Below, piece by piece: positions 3,813-53,858 of a DNA stretch of 63,929 nucleotides. Origin of the DNA: a virus; IMG/VR virus record IMGVR_UViG_3300034117_000797, positions 1 through 63,929 of that record. One strand, written 5' to 3'. The position numbers were made by a program, and so were the translations under genes. The notes under the pieces are model-generated. The model ran no database searches and was not told the DNA's origin. It saw only the letters and a list, made by a program, of their open reading frames with translations. Numbering within the stretch: the first letter of the stretch is position 1; the number at the start of each line of letters is the position of its first letter.

Positions 3813-4121
3813 ATGAGAAATCTATTTACCTATGGGACACTGCAAAAGCACTATGTCCAAGAAGAACTAATCGGAAGAATCCAAGAAGGAGATGTTGATG
3901 CAATCGAAGGATTTGTAGTAACAAACGACTACTTTGTAGACGATGACTTTTACCCACGACTTATCCCCTTCTTAAACGGGATTGTGTATGGTAGAGTTAT
4001 GCAATTCACTGACGAGGAAATCGCAGTGCTAGATGAGTACGAATCCGAAGCATACGAGCGAGTAGTAATCAATACAAAAATGGGCAGAGAGGTAGAGGTC
4101 TATATGCCAGTTCAACAGTAA
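3813..4121 (+). CDS. Gamma-glutamylcyclotransferase (GGCT/AIG2-like) protein
   Basis: N-terminal FTYGTLQ (residues 5-11) is the signature substrate-binding loop of the GGCT/AIG2 fold. LDEYESEAYER (73-83) matches the conserved segment holding the acidic catalytic residue. At 102 aa it is the usual length for a stand-alone member. The family cyclises gamma-glutamyl amines to 5-oxoproline, or cleaves related gamma-glutamyl amide links. It lies directly before an amidoligase and a class II glutamine amidotransferase, enzymes linked to GGCT proteins in earlier comparative work on amidoligases. The likely role is to reverse or trim the modification made by that pair. Confidence 0.85.
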   Translation: MRNLFTYGTLQKHYVQEELIGRIQEGDVDAIEGFVVTNDYFVDDDFYPRLIPFLNGIVYGRVMQFTDEEIAVLDEYESEAYERVVINTKMGREVEVYMPVQQ

Positions 4122-4152
4122 TCAATTAAGTACAACCAATAAAACAACCAAA

Positions 4153-5883
4153 ATGGAAACAAAAAATTTCTTCGTAAAAAATGAGTTCTCTAACAGCGAT
4201 GCAGAGACATTAGCAAATGACAAATGGTCTAAGTTCATTCGCTGGATGAATAGCCTAAGTAGCACACAGTTCAGTGGCAATGTTCTTAATGACCACTATG
4301 GGGTTCGTGCTGACGGCTCAACAAACTCACGCAGTTGGATTAACGCAGGTGAAGAAGTGGTCTCGTTAGATGAAGCTTTATTGCGTATCAATTACGAACG
4401 ATTCAATCGTCGTAAAAGCTTTGTAGTAGAATGTACTGACACTACGAACACAGATTGGCGTAGGTTCATTGACCTACTTAATGACGCATACAATGTTAGC
4501 TATGACGGAGATTTGTTAGGGCATACTTATGGTCTAATAGAAAGCAACCCTAAGTGTCTGGGAGCAGTTGGTATGTCTAGCCACTGCCCTATGATATTGC
4601 CTGTAGATGAGGGCATAGCACTTCTTGAATGTATTGTAAACAAAAAAAGAATAGATATGGAAACAATGGTAACAACTTACAACGGTGATGAACACCCAGC
4701 ATCAGATTGCGTGGTGTTAGACAATGAATCAGGCAATGGCGGTGAGTATGCGCTCAAAAGCGAATGTTTATACAGCCGTGTACACAGCGGGTATATCTTG
4801 CAGTCTGAGGCCGTAGAAGATGCACGAGGTCACTTCTTCGTCGAAGACAATGCAGATGACCTAGATTATGTGTGGTCTGACTTCAACGATGCGTGGATTA
4901 ACACGAATTGGAATGATACTGTTTACGGTTACACTGGACACAGCGAAGAGTATTTTATGTCAGACGAATACGTCTACATCAATGGCACTTACTTCGTCGA
5001 CTCAGGTGTGGCCAATGACCACGGATACCACTACGACAGCGACGAGGATGAGTGGTACCACGAAGATGATGAGCGACCTGCTCGTGTGTCTAGATGCAAT
5101 AGTGGTTATCACTCAGGTCGTGGGCGTGAGTTCCGTGCAGGTAACGCCAAGTTCACGATAGGTGTAGAGATTGAGAAAGAAGATGATGTAGCAGGCCTCA
5201 TTCATTGGAGTAAGGTGTATAGCAATACTGGTTGGATTAAGGAGAATGATGGTTCTCTTGACTGCAATGGGTATGAGTTAGTGTCGCCTGTATTCGACTT
5301 GTTCAACGATGGTATGGACAAGGAGATTGACGGCTCAAGCGACCTTCAAGAGTTGATTGATGCAGAGTATTCAGACAACTGCGGTGGTCACATCAACCTT
5401 GGTGCTACTGACTATACTCCGGAGCAACTGTTCGAGGGTCTATCATCCTTTATGCCTCTATTGTATACGATGTATCCACATCGCATTGATAGAAGCTACT
5501 GCCAAGCCAAGAAGAAGTACAACTATCGCTCACCTGACAAGTACTCAGCTGTGTACATCAAGCACAATGTAGTAGAGTTCCGTATCTTCCCTGCTGTACG
5601 CAGTGTCAAGAATCTATTGTGGAGACGAGACTTGATTCGCATTATGTGTGACAACATCAACAAGTCCGAGCTTGATGTACTCAAGATGCTTGTCAATCAG
5701 AACAGCAAGTTGTACAAACATCTGCGTAAGATTTACTCGCAAGATGTACTACTTGAGCGCACCAAGCAGTTCATTATGTACACTGAGCGCTTCAATGACA
5801 AGAAGTTGCCACCTATTGACCCTAAGAAGTTCAAGAAGGGCGAGGACAATATCACTGATTCAACTGAAGACCTAGGGGCATAA
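4153..5883 (+). CDS. Amidoligase family protein (COOH-NH2 ligase), 576 aa
   Basis: The C-terminal part, about residues 333-520, has the hallmarks of the putative amidoligase family of the glutamine-synthetase-like fold: TIGVEIEKE, DGSL followed by GYELVSP, CGGHINLG, RSYC and HNVVEFRIFPAV. The glutamates, the histidine and the arginines would bind metal-ATP and the carboxylate. Residues 1-150 are helical, and about 230-310 is an acidic, Tyr/Asp/His-rich region of short repeated beta-like motifs. Such enzymes join a carboxylate to an amine using ATP. Here ammonia could come from the amidotransferase encoded 61 nt downstream. The substrate (cell wall, peptide, protein or small molecule) is unknown. 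Confidence 0.85.
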   Translation: METKNFFVKNEFSNSDAETLANDKWSKFIRWMNSLSSTQFSGNVLNDHYGVRADGSTNSRSWINAGEEVVSLDEALLRINYERFNRRKSFVVECTDTTNTDWRRFIDLLNDAYNVSYDGDLLGHTYGLIESNPKCLGAVGMSSHCPMILPVDEGIALLECIVNKKRIDMETMVTTYNGDEHPASDCVVLDNESGNGGEYALKSECLYSRVHSGYILQSEAVEDARGHFFVEDNADDLDYVWSDFNDAWINTNWNDTVYGYTGHSEEYFMSDEYVYINGTYFVDSGVANDHGYHYDSDEDEWYHEDDERPARVSRCNSGYHSGRGREFRAGNAKFTIGVEIEKEDDVAGLIHWSKVYSNTGWIKENDGSLDCNGYELVSPVFDLFNDGMDKEIDGSSDLQELIDAEYSDNCGGHINLGATDYTPEQLFEGLSSFMPLLYTMYPHRIDRSYCQAKKKYNYRSPDKYSAVYIKHNVVEFRIFPAVRSVKNLLWRRDLIRIMCDNINKSELDVLKMLVNQNSKLYKHLRKIYSQDVLLERTKQFIMYTERFNDKKLPPIDPKKFKKGEDNITDSTEDLGA

Positions 5884-5944
5884 GCCATTAGGTTCACCTT
5901 AATTAACCAACCAAATAATATCAACCAATAAACAAATAGAAATT

Positions 5945-6907
5945 ATGTGCATTGCGATTCTTAACACGAAGGGAGCTACCCTTAAAAAGCAACTATTGAA
6001 GAACTGTTGGGACAATAACAGTGACGGAGCAGGTATGCTCTATATCAATGACTATGGAATGATGGAGGTATTCAAGGAGATGAATTCCTTCGAGTCATTC
6101 TATGCTAAATACAGCGAGGTCAAGCGTATGTATGGTAAGCGCAATATCGTATTGCATTTCCGTATCAGTACACACGGAGGTGTCACAGAAGGTAACTGCC
6201 ACCCGTTTATGGTACACCAAGACTTGGGATTCGTTCATAATGGTATGATTTACAATGTGCCTACTAGCAAGGTTCATTCAGATACCTATATGTTTAACGA
6301 AGTTATACTTAAGAAACTCAAGGAAGGCTTCGAGTATGACGAGGATATCCTTGATATGATTGAGGTGTATATCGGTAGCGGCAGCAAGCTTATCTTCCTC
6401 AATGCTCAAGATGATTGGGCTATCGTTAATGAGAAGGCAGGTCATTGGGCTATGGATTGCTGGTTCTCTAACTCATCTTACAAGCAGGTTAACGATTGGG
6501 TTGACTATGGTGGTACGAAGAAGTACAAGTCTAATGTATATGGATATGGCTCGTATGGCTATGGTACATACAATACTAAATCATATTGGGGTGATATCCA
6601 TATGGATGAAAAGCCTGCTAGCAAGTCTTACTCATTGACTGACGACAACGATAGCAAGCTGTATGACCAATGCTCTGAGTGTGGCTGTCATCTATACGAT
6701 GCCAAGGAATTTACAGCAGGTAAGTGTGAATGGTGCATCGAAGAAGAATTGGTATTGGCAAATAAGCTTGACATAGACGAGATAGAGCATACCTGCGAAT
6801 GCTGCAGTACTTGGGCTAAGCTTAACTACAACGAGAACTATGATGCGTTCATCTGCCGTAAATGCGATGATGAATTGAAAAAAGAAATGGGTGACTACGG
6901 AGCGTAG
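5945..6907 (+). CDS. Class II glutamine amidotransferase with C-terminal zinc ribbons
   Basis: Starts MCIAIL with Cys2 as the N-terminal nucleophile of the Ntn-hydrolase glutaminase fold. HFRISTHGG, the substrate-contact region GFVHNG and a later SDTYMF also fit the family. After about residue 240 two Cys-rich modules follow, CSECGC...CEWC and CECC...CRKC, each with four cysteines spaced as treble-clef or zinc-ribbon ligands. It is expected to release ammonia from glutamine for the preceding amidoligase. The zinc ribbons may bind that partner or its substrate. The fusion and the 320-aa length suggest a dedicated subunit, not a host biosynthetic enzyme. Confidence 0.85.
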   Translation: MCIAILNTKGATLKKQLLKNCWDNNSDGAGMLYINDYGMMEVFKEMNSFESFYAKYSEVKRMYGKRNIVLHFRISTHGGVTEGNCHPFMVHQDLGFVHNGMIYNVPTSKVHSDTYMFNEVILKKLKEGFEYDEDILDMIEVYIGSGSKLIFLNAQDDWAIVNEKAGHWAMDCWFSNSSYKQVNDWVDYGGTKKYKSNVYGYGSYGYGTYNTKSYWGDIHMDEKPASKSYSLTDDNDSKLYDQCSECGCHLYDAKEFTAGKCEWCIEEELVLANKLDIDEIEHTCECCSTWAKLNYNENYDAFICRKCDDELKKEMGDYGA

Positions 6908-20657: not shown

Positions 20658-21335
20658 TTACTTTAGGGATTTCAACATCTCTACCATCTTAGGATGAGGG
20701 TAGACATCAGACTTATCTTTTCGATACGAGTTATGAGTAAACAAACCATTTTCGCCTTTCAACGCACGGTCAGTAACATTCCAAATGTCCTCATTGTATG
20801 TGATATCTATGCCATACTTTTCATGAAGATATATGACCAACTGACGTGTTGATTCAATCTGAGCATCGCTATAAGCATGATAATGCTTAAACCCTTTGAA
20901 AGGTTTATCAAGAGTACATACCTCATCAGGATGAACCTCTCTATCTACATAGTTGTAGAACTTCCCATTTTTCTCTTCTAGCGGCCCCCAATTACATATC
21001 TCTATCCCAATGGATAGTTTGTCAAGGTTCTGCCATTTAATGTCTCTAGAGGCAAATACTTCAGCCTTTACGCCTAAGTGGTATGCCCAATTCTTAGAGC
21101 TAAAGCATTGAACAATCTCTCCATCCTTACTATTAGTAGAATTCTTTCCAGAAATGCAAACAAACGTAGCAATACGACCACGGCTATCAGCGTTCCAAGC
21201 GTTGATTGTACTTACACCTGACCCATTACCTGCCGTGTGATGCAATACAATCTGTTTCTTGATTGTTGTCTCATTGAAAAACTGCCCATCCTTTAACGGA
21301 TATTGGCGAATAGTTGATAAGTCTAAATTTCCCAT
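20658..21335 (-). CDS. N-acetylmuramoyl-L-alanine amidase endolysin, 225 aa
   Basis: Amidase_2/PGRP fold: zinc ligand region LHHTAG (residues 31-36), core with WAYHLG (83-88) and the strand LSIGIEICNWG (107-117) followed by HYHAYSDAQIESTRQLVIYL. It cleaves the bond between muramic acid and the stem peptide. There is no signal peptide, so it needs the holin to reach the wall. It sits at the end of a lysis cassette with holin, spanin and peptidase candidates. The start overlaps the end of the spanin gene by 13 nt. Confidence 0.9.
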   Translation of the reverse strand: MGNLDLSTIRQYPLKDGQFFNETTIKKQIVLHHTAGNGSGVSTINAWNADSRGRIATFVCISGKNSTNSKDGEIVQCFSSKNWAYHLGVKAEVFASRDIKWQNLDKLSIGIEICNWGPLEEKNGKFYNYVDREVHPDEVCTLDKPFKGFKHYHAYSDAQIESTRQLVIYLHEKYGIDITYNEDIWNVTDRALKGENGLFTHNSYRKDKSDVYPHPKMVEMLKSLK

Positions 21336-21775
21336 CTCTTTGCGATTCTACTGATGATGTAAATGATTGCTGCTATAAAGATAAGCCAAAATGTTATCTT
21401 AACGTATTGACCTGCCTCAGCCCAAAATCCTTTCTTCTTCTCGTAGTATCTAACAGGAACCTTCCTTTCAACAATCTTGTCTACATACACAGTGTCACAT
21501 TCACCTGCAATGTAAACCTTATTGTATCTGTCTACATATACCTTAACTTTTAGTTGGTCTTTCTCCAAATAAACTGTGTCAAATAACTGTTGATAAGAAA
21601 CAACAGTGTCTATCTTAACCCCTGGCACATAGATGCGGATAGTATCATGCATTATGATAGTATCATTTGTTAGTAGATAAGGATACTTCTCTATTAACTT
21701 GGTAAATCTTCTTTGCGGAGAACACGATGCTGACAACATCAGCAACACGAACAAGAATTTATACAGTGACTTCAT
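21323..21775 (-). CDS. Unimolecular spanin (u-spanin) candidate, 150 aa
   Basis: N-terminal signal MKSLYKFLFVLLMLSASC with lipobox LSAS-C (Cys18), then a beta-rich, charged periplasmic part and a C-terminal membrane segment WLIFIAAIIYIISRIA (about 129-144). An outer-membrane lipid anchor plus an inner-membrane anchor in one chain is the layout of a u-spanin, which fuses the two membranes after the wall is cut. It lies between the amidase and peptidase genes, which supports it. A membrane lipoprotein of other function is possible. Confidence 0.7.
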   Translation of the reverse strand: MKSLYKFLFVLLMLSASCSPQRRFTKLIEKYPYLLTNDTIIMHDTIRIYVPGVKIDTVVSYQQLFDTVYLEKDQLKVKVYVDRYNKVYIAGECDTVYVDKIVERKVPVRYYEKKKGFWAEAGQYVKITFWLIFIAAIIYIISRIAKRWEI

Positions 21776-22247
21776 TGAAATGATTCATTTTACACCACTC
21801 ATACACGTCTTGTGGTGACATTCTATACGACTTCTCTACTCCATATACCCAAGCAACGAATTCAGAGCAGTACATGCGCTCCTGTTCGTTCTTTTTAATC
21901 TTCCATTTACCCGTAAGCAATTCGATTGGTTGCTTAAATATAAGGCCTTCGATGTCATATCCAGTGTGACCTACTCTTGTAAGCGCACGCATAGACAATT
22001 CTTTTTCATCAATGGATTCAGGTCGGCTTACCTCAAAGTCATATCCGTACATATCTTTCCACGCATCAAATGGTCTTACGTTAACGCCATCCTTTTGAGC
22101 ATCTATAATGTATGGCTGTCCCCAAATCTCTATGAACAGAGCAGTATGAGAGAACTTAGATTTAGTGACCTTTCTGATTATCTTGCTCAGGAGTTTCTTT
22201 CCCGTGCAGTGAAGAATGTCACCCGTTTTCAAATTTGTTGGATTCAT
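21759..22247 (-). CDS. Permuted papain-like (YiiX/C92-type) peptidase, 162 aa
   Basis: KTGDILHCTGKK is the typical GD-x-(hydrophobic) start. FSHTALFIE places His34 and YCSEFVAWVYG places Cys127, giving the circularly permuted NlpC/P60-like order (His before Cys). The family cleaves peptide or amide links, in phages often in wall peptides. Located between the holin-like and spanin genes, so it may be a second lysis enzyme or act at entry. No signal peptide. Confidence 0.7.
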   Translation of the reverse strand: MNPTNLKTGDILHCTGKKLLSKIIRKVTKSKFSHTALFIEIWGQPYIIDAQKDGVNVRPFDAWKDMYGYDFEVSRPESIDEKELSMRALTRVGHTGYDIEGLIFKQPIELLTGKWKIKKNEQERMYCSEFVAWVYGVEKSYRMSPQDVYEWCKMNHFNEVTV

Positions 22248-36264: not shown

Positions 36265-36732
36265 TTACTTACCCAATTCTTGGTCAACAAGAATCGGCTC
36301 GCTTGTTCTACTGAGTCGAGCGATTAAATCACCGTACTCACCAACGCTCTGAACCTGAATATCAATTAGCTCTTTTAAGAATGCTTTCATCTTTGGAGAT
36401 GATTTTTCCCATGCGAACTCATACTCTTCAAGTAGGTCTGATTCCATCTCTACAGCGTGAGTAAATGCCTGCATAAGGTCTCCAATTTCATCGTCAACGG
36501 CATCTAAAGAACGAACCTCTAATTGCTCGTTCATGTCATTCATAAATGCTTCTAATTTATCGTAATGTGAAAGTTCAGATAAGCATTCTGCATTGAAGAA
36601 TTTCTCAGCTCCAAAGAAACCGATTGTCTTCATGCTGTTTGCTAAATGTTTGTAAGTATGGCTTGCGACCATTTCTAAATTACCAAGATTGTTCATCATC
36701 TCAACTTCTTGGCTTGTAAGTAATTTCTTCAT
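36265..36732 (-). CDS. Ferritin-like diiron domain protein, 155 aa
   Basis: Helix A has ASHTYKHLANSMKTIGFFGAEKFFNAECLSELSHYDKL. The spacing E20...E53-x-x-H56 matches the ferritin/bacterioferritin diiron site, and E95/E97 with Q126/E132 could be the later ligands. A four-helix bundle of 155 aa is the normal size. In hosts, ferritins oxidise and store iron or protect DNA. A copy in a late structural operon between internal virion genes is unusual. It may be a virion scaffold or iron-linked protein. Ligand set is partly inferred. Confidence 0.65.
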   Translation of the reverse strand: MKKLLTSQEVEMMNNLGNLEMVASHTYKHLANSMKTIGFFGAEKFFNAECLSELSHYDKLEAFMNDMNEQLEVRSLDAVDDEIGDLMQAFTHAVEMESDLLEEYEFAWEKSSPKMKAFLKELIDIQVQSVGEYGDLIARLSRTSEPILVDQELGK

Positions 36733-51650: not shown

Positions 51651-53858
51651 TTATTGCATGCTATCTATTTTAGCCTGCTCTCTTTCATTTTTTGCAGCCT
51701 CTTTTAGCTCAATTTTTTCCATGTCTTGTTGATGAGCTGCTTGTTGCATATCCATTGCCATCTGCTGTTGACCTTGTTCCTGTTGAGCCATTTGTTCAGC
51801 TTGTTGAGACTGCATAATGTTGTTTTGAGCTTGAGCTTTAGTAGCATCTTTCTGAGCCATAAAGTCAGCCTGCATCTTATCTCGTTGGAATCTACGAATA
51901 GCATTCGCAATAGAATCAGGTGTAGAGCGATTAAATAATTCAGCAAACATTTGTTGGTCAATCAACTGAGCTTGAAGAAGAGTGAACAGCAATGTATTTC
52001 CGTTGTTTATTCCTTGCTCTTGAGACTCAGCACGCTTAATGAAGATTCTGTAATCTTGTAGCAAATCATCCTCAGTGATATTTATTGTTTGAAAACCTTT
52101 GTCTCCAACAATTTGAGCCAATCTTCGTGGATTGTCATAGTAAACCATTTTACCAACAGTGGCAATATGTTCGTATGCTTGACGAAGGATTGATGTGAGC
52201 GCCCAATAGAACGGCTCTTGAACCAATGAACCACGCTGAATCTGAGCTTCAATAACACCCACAAGAACATCGCTACCACCTTGAGTTCCAGTCATCGCTT
52301 CGTTCACACCTGTAACATCTTGAATACTAGCTTGTACCTGTTGAATAACATTGAACAACTCCATGGTTCCTCCACCAATGTTTGTACCATACGTTCCGAT
52401 GGCATTCTGTACTGAACCAACACGGTCTGTGTCGACAAAGATTGGCTTTGAAGCGTTGATGTTTCTTGTGATGTCCGCCTCTCCATCTCTGTCATCTACC
52501 GCAGACTTAGAGATAACTGTACCTGTTCCACGCATGTTAGCCATGTGTGATTCAACTACAGATAGCGTTCTATTCAAGAATCTTTGTGGGTCAATAACAT
52601 CATCAAGAGGTGTTAATACATCTCCACGGTCATATACCCATGTATAGCATTTGTAAGGGAATCTTACGTTAGCTGGGTCATAAAGATTCTTCTCTTGGTA
52701 AGGAGCAATTCCGTACTCAAGGATAATATCTCCAAGACCATTCCCAATCTCTTCTTGTGGCAATAAGATGCAGTAACGAAGAACATCAACATAGATTGTA
52801 TGCTTCTTCTTATCGCCCATTTCTTTCTGATGCTTGTCTGTCGCAGGCTTAATCAAGTCTTTGTCAGTGTACTTTGAATCAGGGTGATTTACCATGGTGT
52901 AGTAAGGATACCCATATTCATCAAGCACCCATCCGTACTCACGCTTATCAAGGTCTTTCCAATACACTTCGTAAACAGGAACTTTACCTGCCGCTTGAGT
53001 GTAGATACCATTGATGATTTTGTGTACGTTGTGCGTATTTTGATTTCCGTAGTTCTCGATTGCCTCACGCTCTTGATTTGTCAAGTTCTGGAATCGCTCA
53101 AAGATGCTTGGCGCATCCATGTAATACCATTCCCCCATGAACTCAGCATCACGCAAGTCAGGCTTTTTAGCAGACATATCCCAAATGAAGAACAATGGAT
53201 TTACTGCGTCTGCGCAATAAATGTCATTCGCCTCATATCCTTTGTAGATACCTATACCACAAAGAGCAAGGTTACGAGTAATCTGAACCTTTAACTCGTC
53301 CATGTTTACCTCCTGCGCAACGAACTCGATGAGGTTATTTATGTCTTTTTCGTAGTCTTCAACAAATGTGTTATAGAACATCTGCTCTGTTTCAAACTCT
53401 GTATCTTGAATACCTTTATTGTCCTTAATCATATCCTTAAAGAACGGATGTGTGTCGGCAATCTTTTGGTATGTTTTAAGCTTTGCTAATTCAGCCTCAC
53501 GCTTGTTAATTACGAAGTCTGAAATACAAGTGGCTTTAGCGTCATATGCCAAACGAATAGCATTACCAACGTACTGCTGTACCATTGGTTTGATTACGTT
53601 TTTAGTCCACTTTAATCGGTTACGAATGTCACCTGATTCATCAAGAAAGAAGCTCTCGATGTCCTCATCAAAAATCCACTGACCGTCACCTCCTTTGAAG
53701 AATGACCAGTTGATAAGGCATTTGTTTATATATCTTCGGTAGATGTAATTACTCATCGCAGACAGACAGTACTTTGCATAGTCCTTGTGGTACGTCTTGT
53801 CTTTTTTGGAAGTCAACCTATTAGGTCTGATGTTTCCTGTGCTGAAAATATAACTCAT
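51651..53858 (-). CDS. Portal protein, 735 aa
   Basis: N-terminal YAKYCLSAMSNYIYRRYINKCLINW, a central wing-like part with DYEKDINNLIEFVAQEVNMDELKVQITRNLALCGIGIYKGYE, VNEAMTGTQGGSDVLVGVI and a C-terminal Gln/Met/Glu-rich helix (about 660-735). Length, composition and the terminase-portal-scaffold-capsid logic of the region identify the portal that gates DNA entry. The terminase is encoded apart, 3 kb away on the same strand. Confidence 0.8.
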   Translation of the reverse strand: MSYIFSTGNIRPNRLTSKKDKTYHKDYAKYCLSAMSNYIYRRYINKCLINWSFFKGGDGQWIFDEDIESFFLDESGDIRNRLKWTKNVIKPMVQQYVGNAIRLAYDAKATCISDFVINKREAELAKLKTYQKIADTHPFFKDMIKDNKGIQDTEFETEQMFYNTFVEDYEKDINNLIEFVAQEVNMDELKVQITRNLALCGIGIYKGYEANDIYCADAVNPLFFIWDMSAKKPDLRDAEFMGEWYYMDAPSIFERFQNLTNQEREAIENYGNQNTHNVHKIINGIYTQAAGKVPVYEVYWKDLDKREYGWVLDEYGYPYYTMVNHPDSKYTDKDLIKPATDKHQKEMGDKKKHTIYVDVLRYCILLPQEEIGNGLGDIILEYGIAPYQEKNLYDPANVRFPYKCYTWVYDRGDVLTPLDDVIDPQRFLNRTLSVVESHMANMRGTGTVISKSAVDDRDGEADITRNINASKPIFVDTDRVGSVQNAIGTYGTNIGGGTMELFNVIQQVQASIQDVTGVNEAMTGTQGGSDVLVGVIEAQIQRGSLVQEPFYWALTSILRQAYEHIATVGKMVYYDNPRRLAQIVGDKGFQTINITEDDLLQDYRIFIKRAESQEQGINNGNTLLFTLLQAQLIDQQMFAELFNRSTPDSIANAIRRFQRDKMQADFMAQKDATKAQAQNNIMQSQQAEQMAQQEQGQQQMAMDMQQAAHQQDMEKIELKEAAKNEREQAKIDSMQ

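Follow-up and report, generated by a model that had tools for sequence, protein, structure and literature searches.

A cassette that combines a gamma-glutamyl cyclotransferase (GGCT), an ATP-grasp ligase, a COOH-NH2 ligase, a glutamine amidotransferase (GATase) and an amidoligase is described for phages of the phiEco32, LUZ24 and RIO-1 types (PMC5498523, PMC3890496, PMC11945000), and its genes have been tabulated for a LUZ24-like phage (PMC3890496). The same accounts, which refer to Iyer et al. 2009, list phiEco32, LUZ24, PaP3, tf, RIO-1 and PSA-HP1 as carriers of a 'peptidoglycan modification' module. For cassettes of five to seven genes, modification of the peptidoglycan and prevention of superinfection have been hypothesised (PMC5498523, PMC10580990, PMC6256558, PMC11945000); the sections of PMC5498523, PMC10580990 and PMC11945000 drawn on here cite no experiment on the reaction or the substrate, and treat peptidoglycan as a hypothesis. 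Cellulophaga phage phi14:2, a Bacteroidota phage of the Crassvirales, carries the five genes contiguously, in the order GGCT, ATP-grasp, COOH-NH2 ligase, class-II GATase and amidoligase (NC_021806, 22025-27669). In the Methylophilales phages MEP401/402 and in Mycobacterium phage Marvin, a ligase is followed by an adjacent GATase, with no further cassette genes beside the pair.

Layout and genomic context of the locus

The window (the whole stretch of DNA analysed, 63,929 nucleotides, from a 63.9-kb IMG/VR virus record) encodes at 3813-6907 a GGCT (3813..4121), an amidoligase (4153..5883) and a class-II GATase with two Cys4 modules (5945..6907). All three ORFs are on the + strand, with intergenic gaps of 31 and 61 bp. 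This confirms the three adjacent genes of an earlier note made from the sequence alone, and every motif quoted there is present; the note had also flagged the neighbourhood link as known, in agreement with the fuller cassette published as a phage peptidoglycan-modification module in the accounts cited above.

The cassette is located in a long series of small early-type genes on the + strand, which also includes genes for a Rad52-type annealing protein, DnaB and a MazG-like pyrophosphohydrolase, and an SSB-like gene. Assignment of a host to the window phage is tentative, because a Bacteroidota-type promoter motif (e.g. at 770-800), sought as host evidence, does not occur in the window above chance, and because the only matches that phage collections provide for its portal protein (51651-53858, - strand) are weak and mostly to crAss-like phages. 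The portal protein does, however, strongly match the PHROG portal families. The terminase of the window is also very divergent, and the divergence of both proteins places the phage in a poorly sampled lineage. Further genes on the - strand include a ferritin-like protein (36265-36732; PF00210, E 2.9e-14), located within the late structural-gene strand, and a permuted papain-like amidase of the YaeF/YiiX C92 family (21759-22247; PF05708, E 3.1e-8), located near an amidase-type endolysin at 20658-21335.

A glutamine-synthetase-fold amidoligase

The 576-aa product of the second gene (4153..5883, + strand) is composed of an N-terminal and middle accessory region (residues ~1-320) and of a catalytic domain (residues ~330-540), whose approximate bounds on the DNA, 5125..5775, follow a profile-profile match and a fold match over residues 330-538. 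The protein has no significant match in Pfam, PHROG or NCBIfam, so that an identification by motif reading alone would be risky. It does not reach the gathering score of PF12224 (Amidoligase_2), for which three of 42 aligned members have an E value of 0.01 or below (best 0.0021). A profile-profile comparison of four close relatives with six Amidoligase_2-type phage proteins nevertheless supports the family assignment of the earlier note (97.2%, E 2.9e-11). Fifteen residues are invariant among 41 sequences (G337, E339, E341, K342, D366, S368, G373, E375, G411, G412, H413, R444, E475, R477 and R491), while E339, D366, S368, G373, E375, V377, G411, H413, R444, Y464, E475 and R477 are invariant across the window clade and the PF12224-matching proteins taken together. 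The protein shows the pattern ExE...H...ExR of the glutamine synthetase (GS) fold. When compared directly as a profile with E. coli GlnA, it did not align significantly; the residue match to glutamine synthetase is therefore one of fold and of the ExE/H/ExR pattern, not of aligned sequence.

The AlphaFold2 model has an overall pLDDT of 83.6, with values above 93 for most of residues 330-550 and of about 96 for the catalytic domain. In Foldseek its first match is the gamma-glutamylmethylamide synthetase GmaS (9qur, E 1.7e-4), followed by YbdK and glutamine synthetases, with Dop among the weaker matches below these. The VIA list is filled by GS-fold enzymes (residues 330-519 against human glutamine synthetase: Z 9.9, rmsd 3.5 over 174 residues), and many matches in a viral library carry the name amidoligase. 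GmaS, YbdK and glutamine synthetase share the fold and the ExE...H...ExR pattern with the window protein; they are, however, cellular small-molecule enzymes, and their accessory regions differ. Together, the conserved residues and the model confirm the predicted GS-fold amidoligase, with active-site-like residues intact.

The glutamine amidotransferase and the cyclotransferase

The 320-aa product of the third gene (5945..6907, + strand) scores above the Pfam cut-off for PF13230 (26.9 bits, cut-off 23), and an alignment of 34 sequences shows no variation at C2, H71, R73, H86-P87-F88, N99-G100 and D113. Catalytic residues, the loss of which the earlier note had considered as a risk, are thus intact after alignment of both enzymes (41 amidoligase and 34 GATase sequences). 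Residues 1-180 of the AlphaFold2 model have a pLDDT of at least 90; VIA matches the model to EgtC (Z 14.3) and to the GlmS glutaminase domain (Z 14.1), and the latter is the best match in Foldseek. On the basis of the Cys2 nucleophile, the glutamine-site residues and the modelled fold, the protein is predicted to be a class-II (Ntn) GATase. Since EgtC, which hydrolyses gamma-glutamyl amides, is matched by the model equally well as GlmS, the protein may in fact supply no ammonia. The protein ends, as the earlier note had described, in two C-terminal Cys4 (CxxC...CxxC) modules (residues 243-264 and 284-307; 6671..6865, + strand), both of which are kept in the nearest relatives (loci L002, L012, L013, L018, L020, L022, L023 and L024), while several other relatives have a GATase with one Cys4 module.

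The first gene (3813..4121, + strand) encodes a 102-aa GGCT / AIG2-like protein, an optional third component of the system, which exceeds the Pfam cut-off for PF06094 (E 6.3e-11, 43.3 bits, cut-off 22.8) and matches the AIG2-like structure 2g0q (E 1.3e-4). Its YGTL motif and the Glu of LDEYE are conserved and align with other GGCTs, in line with the family named in the earlier note.

Conservation of the amidoligase-GATase pair

Relatives of the locus were searched in IMG/VR with the amidoligase alone, used as a four-sequence alignment; the single window amidoligase as query did not suffice to find relatives, and a scan of genome contigs found no relative. The alignment search gave 127 relatives, the best of which were kept as 79 loci, each record being counted once and L002 being added. 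A GATase is encoded on the same strand as the amidoligase in 68 of these 79 loci; in the other 11, where no GATase was seen, just 0-3.9 kb of sequence is available downstream. The gap between the two genes is at most 70 bp in 40 of the 79 loci. Clustering at 80% amidoligase identity divides the loci into about 50 groups, and near-copies therefore do not explain the pairing count. The linkage is far beyond chance, and the pairing is also found in phages MEP402, Marvin and MW202733. Nine of the 79 loci possess two amidoligases. Locus L039 (885-5968) displays a tandem amidoligase-GATase-amidoligase-GATase arrangement, in which the second GATase is of a divergent type.

Two arrangements of the GATase were found. 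In the window clade it is a separate gene immediately 3' of the amidoligase; in a second clade (28 of the loci kept from the best of the 127 relatives) it is fused to a GGCT, the GATase-GGCT gene being located directly downstream of the amidoligase or, in most of the clade, 0.8-2.9 kb away. Because of this distance, a tight complex between amidoligase and GATase is not obligatory. The tree groups the two arrangements, requiring three changes compared with about 17 for shuffled labels. A GATase-GGCT fusion is also present in MW202828; this gene (MW202828.1, locus L003, 8923-10140) additionally encodes a C-terminal Cys4 module and is annotated solely as gamma-glutamyl cyclotransferase.

The conserved unit is thus the pair of amidoligase and GATase. 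Conservation of neighbours outside this phage, on which the earlier note had made its proposal depend, holds for this pair but not for the GGCT, which among the loci examined adjoins the amidoligase in this window only; the idea that the three genes keep their order was accordingly rejected. Among 19 relatives whose whole records were examined, 12 have no GGCT, four have it as a fusion and three as a separate gene elsewhere; in a few phages it is located about 10 kb away. Being found beside the amidoligase only here and being absent from the closest relatives of the window, the GGCT is not an obligatory part of the system; it is a recurrent but optional partner, which has been joined to it in more than one way. 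Support for its functional link to the amidoligase-GATase system comes from the GATase-GGCT fusions and from the five-gene cassette of phi14:2. The 'complete make-and-remove unit' of the earlier note was too strong a description, the GGCT remover being absent from the whole contigs of the closest relatives.

Comparison with the known cassettes

The window shares with the five-gene cassette a GGCT, a class-II GATase and an Amidoligase_2-like GS-fold ligase, and differs from it in two ligases. No match to the COOH-NH2 ligase type 2 (PF14395) was found in the window and 16 related IMG/VR contigs, while the phi14:2 positive control matched. No ATP-grasp protein (PF02222, PF14243) was found in the window or its relatives by profiles that match the controls phi14:2 and StenR_269 only below the cut-off, and the early region of the window showed no unassigned + strand ORF of a size that would suit an ATP-grasp protein. 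Since it lacks these two ligases, the window represents a reduced, divergent variant of a known phage cassette, not a full member, and the published 'three unusual linkages' are not simply transferable to it.

Like the window, phi14:2 has its GGCT, GATase and amidoligase genes on the same strand in a single run, and the two amidoligases have a short N-terminal stretch in common (BLASTP E 0.002). Their catalytic domains, however, are too divergent for BLASTP, the gene order differs, and the window GATase, shorter and bearing Cys4 modules, represents another form. The phiEco32/LUZ24-type module, as far as the cited accounts describe it, likewise unites a GGCT, a class-II GATase and an amidoligase in the midst of early and replication genes; in contrast to the window it comprises five to seven genes, with an ATP-grasp protein and two amidoligase types, and the window amidoligase escapes PF12224. 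MEP401/402 and Marvin resemble the window in their adjacent ligase and GATase, but their ligases match PF12224 weakly (~1e-3) and no GGCT is found among their annotated neighbours.

Proposed function and alternatives

Of the explanations considered, the most probable, with a probability of about 0.48, is that the pair forms a two-subunit glutamine-dependent amidotransferase, most likely altering the host envelope. The GS-fold amidoligase would activate a carboxylate at the expense of ATP, probably a glutamyl- or diaminopimelate-type carboxyl, and the class-II GATase would cleave glutamine at Cys2 and thereby provide the ammonia, yielding a carboxamide or a gamma-glutamyl-type amide; where a GGCT is present, it would trim gamma-glutamyl amides or recycle them to 5-oxoproline. 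The unit would be made early in infection. The target would most likely be the host envelope (peptidoglycan stem peptides) and the effect, for example, the exclusion of other phages, both of which we propose speculatively. This model is supported by the same-strand pairing, the GS fold with its ExE...H...ExR pattern, the full class-II GATase residue set and fold, the GATase-GGCT fusions and the phi14:2 cassette, and the functional link between amidoligase and GATase makes ammonia from glutamine, as the earlier note had suggested, plausible. The published wall-modification readings (PMC5498523, PMC10580990, PMC11945000) count for an envelope role. A somewhat unlikely alternative is that this Pfam-invisible clade of GS-fold ligases and its GATase, fused to a GGCT in one branch, is a minimal amidation or gamma-glutamylation system for a substrate other than peptidoglycan, for which ATP-grasp and second ligase are dispensable; a host defence protein, a nucleotide or a surface polymer may then be the substrate.

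The main rival to the amidotransferase model is ligation and removal of gamma-glutamyl groups, as EgtC and GlmS are tied in VIA as matches of the Ntn protein and the best Foldseek matches of the ligase are GmaS and YbdK. The amidoligase would join a gamma-linked glutamate to an amine, like GmaS, PuuA and gamma-glutamylcysteine ligases, an EgtC-type Ntn hydrolase would remove it and the GGCT would be a second remover, all three proteins thus acting on gamma-glutamyl groups with no transfer of ammonia. The GGCT, which is gamma-glutamyl-specific too and in 28 loci forms a fusion with the Ntn protein, fits this scheme, which we nevertheless regard as unlikely: the Ntn protein is near-constant and the GGCT optional, a ligase is likelier to be paired with its ammonia source than with its own eraser, and Foldseek places the GlmS glutaminase domain first for the GATase. 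It is improbable that the pair targets, by amidation or peptide-tagging, a host protein of defence or transcription or the phage's own DNA or proteins. Pupylation enzymes are GS-fold ligases and the Cys4 modules could bind nucleic acid or protein, but Dop ranks below GmaS, YbdK and GS, and neither a ubiquitin-like tag nor a protease partner was noticed in the vicinity. DNA hypermodification was considered; the window ORFs that were scanned included no recognisable base-modification gene. An auxiliary metabolic module that supports phage production by directing nitrogen to amino acids or compounds resembling glutathione is the reading given to a similar gene set of a Planctomycetes phage (PMC10945688); as presented there, the link is drawn from growth effects of the whole phage. 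For the present locus it appears very unlikely, given that the genes diverge from housekeeping enzymes, stay together as a fixed pair and encode accessory N-terminal regions and Cys4 modules.

The locus belongs to a known kind of phage cassette, which recurs in unrelated phages; what is new is a reduced, database-invisible variant. The window and its relatives reduce the cassette to a two-gene core, the simplest form for biochemical testing, and the GATase-GGCT fusion provides direct evidence for assigning the cyclotransferase to the same chemistry. As Pfam, PHROGs and NCBIfam miss this amidoligase clade, the system is under-counted.
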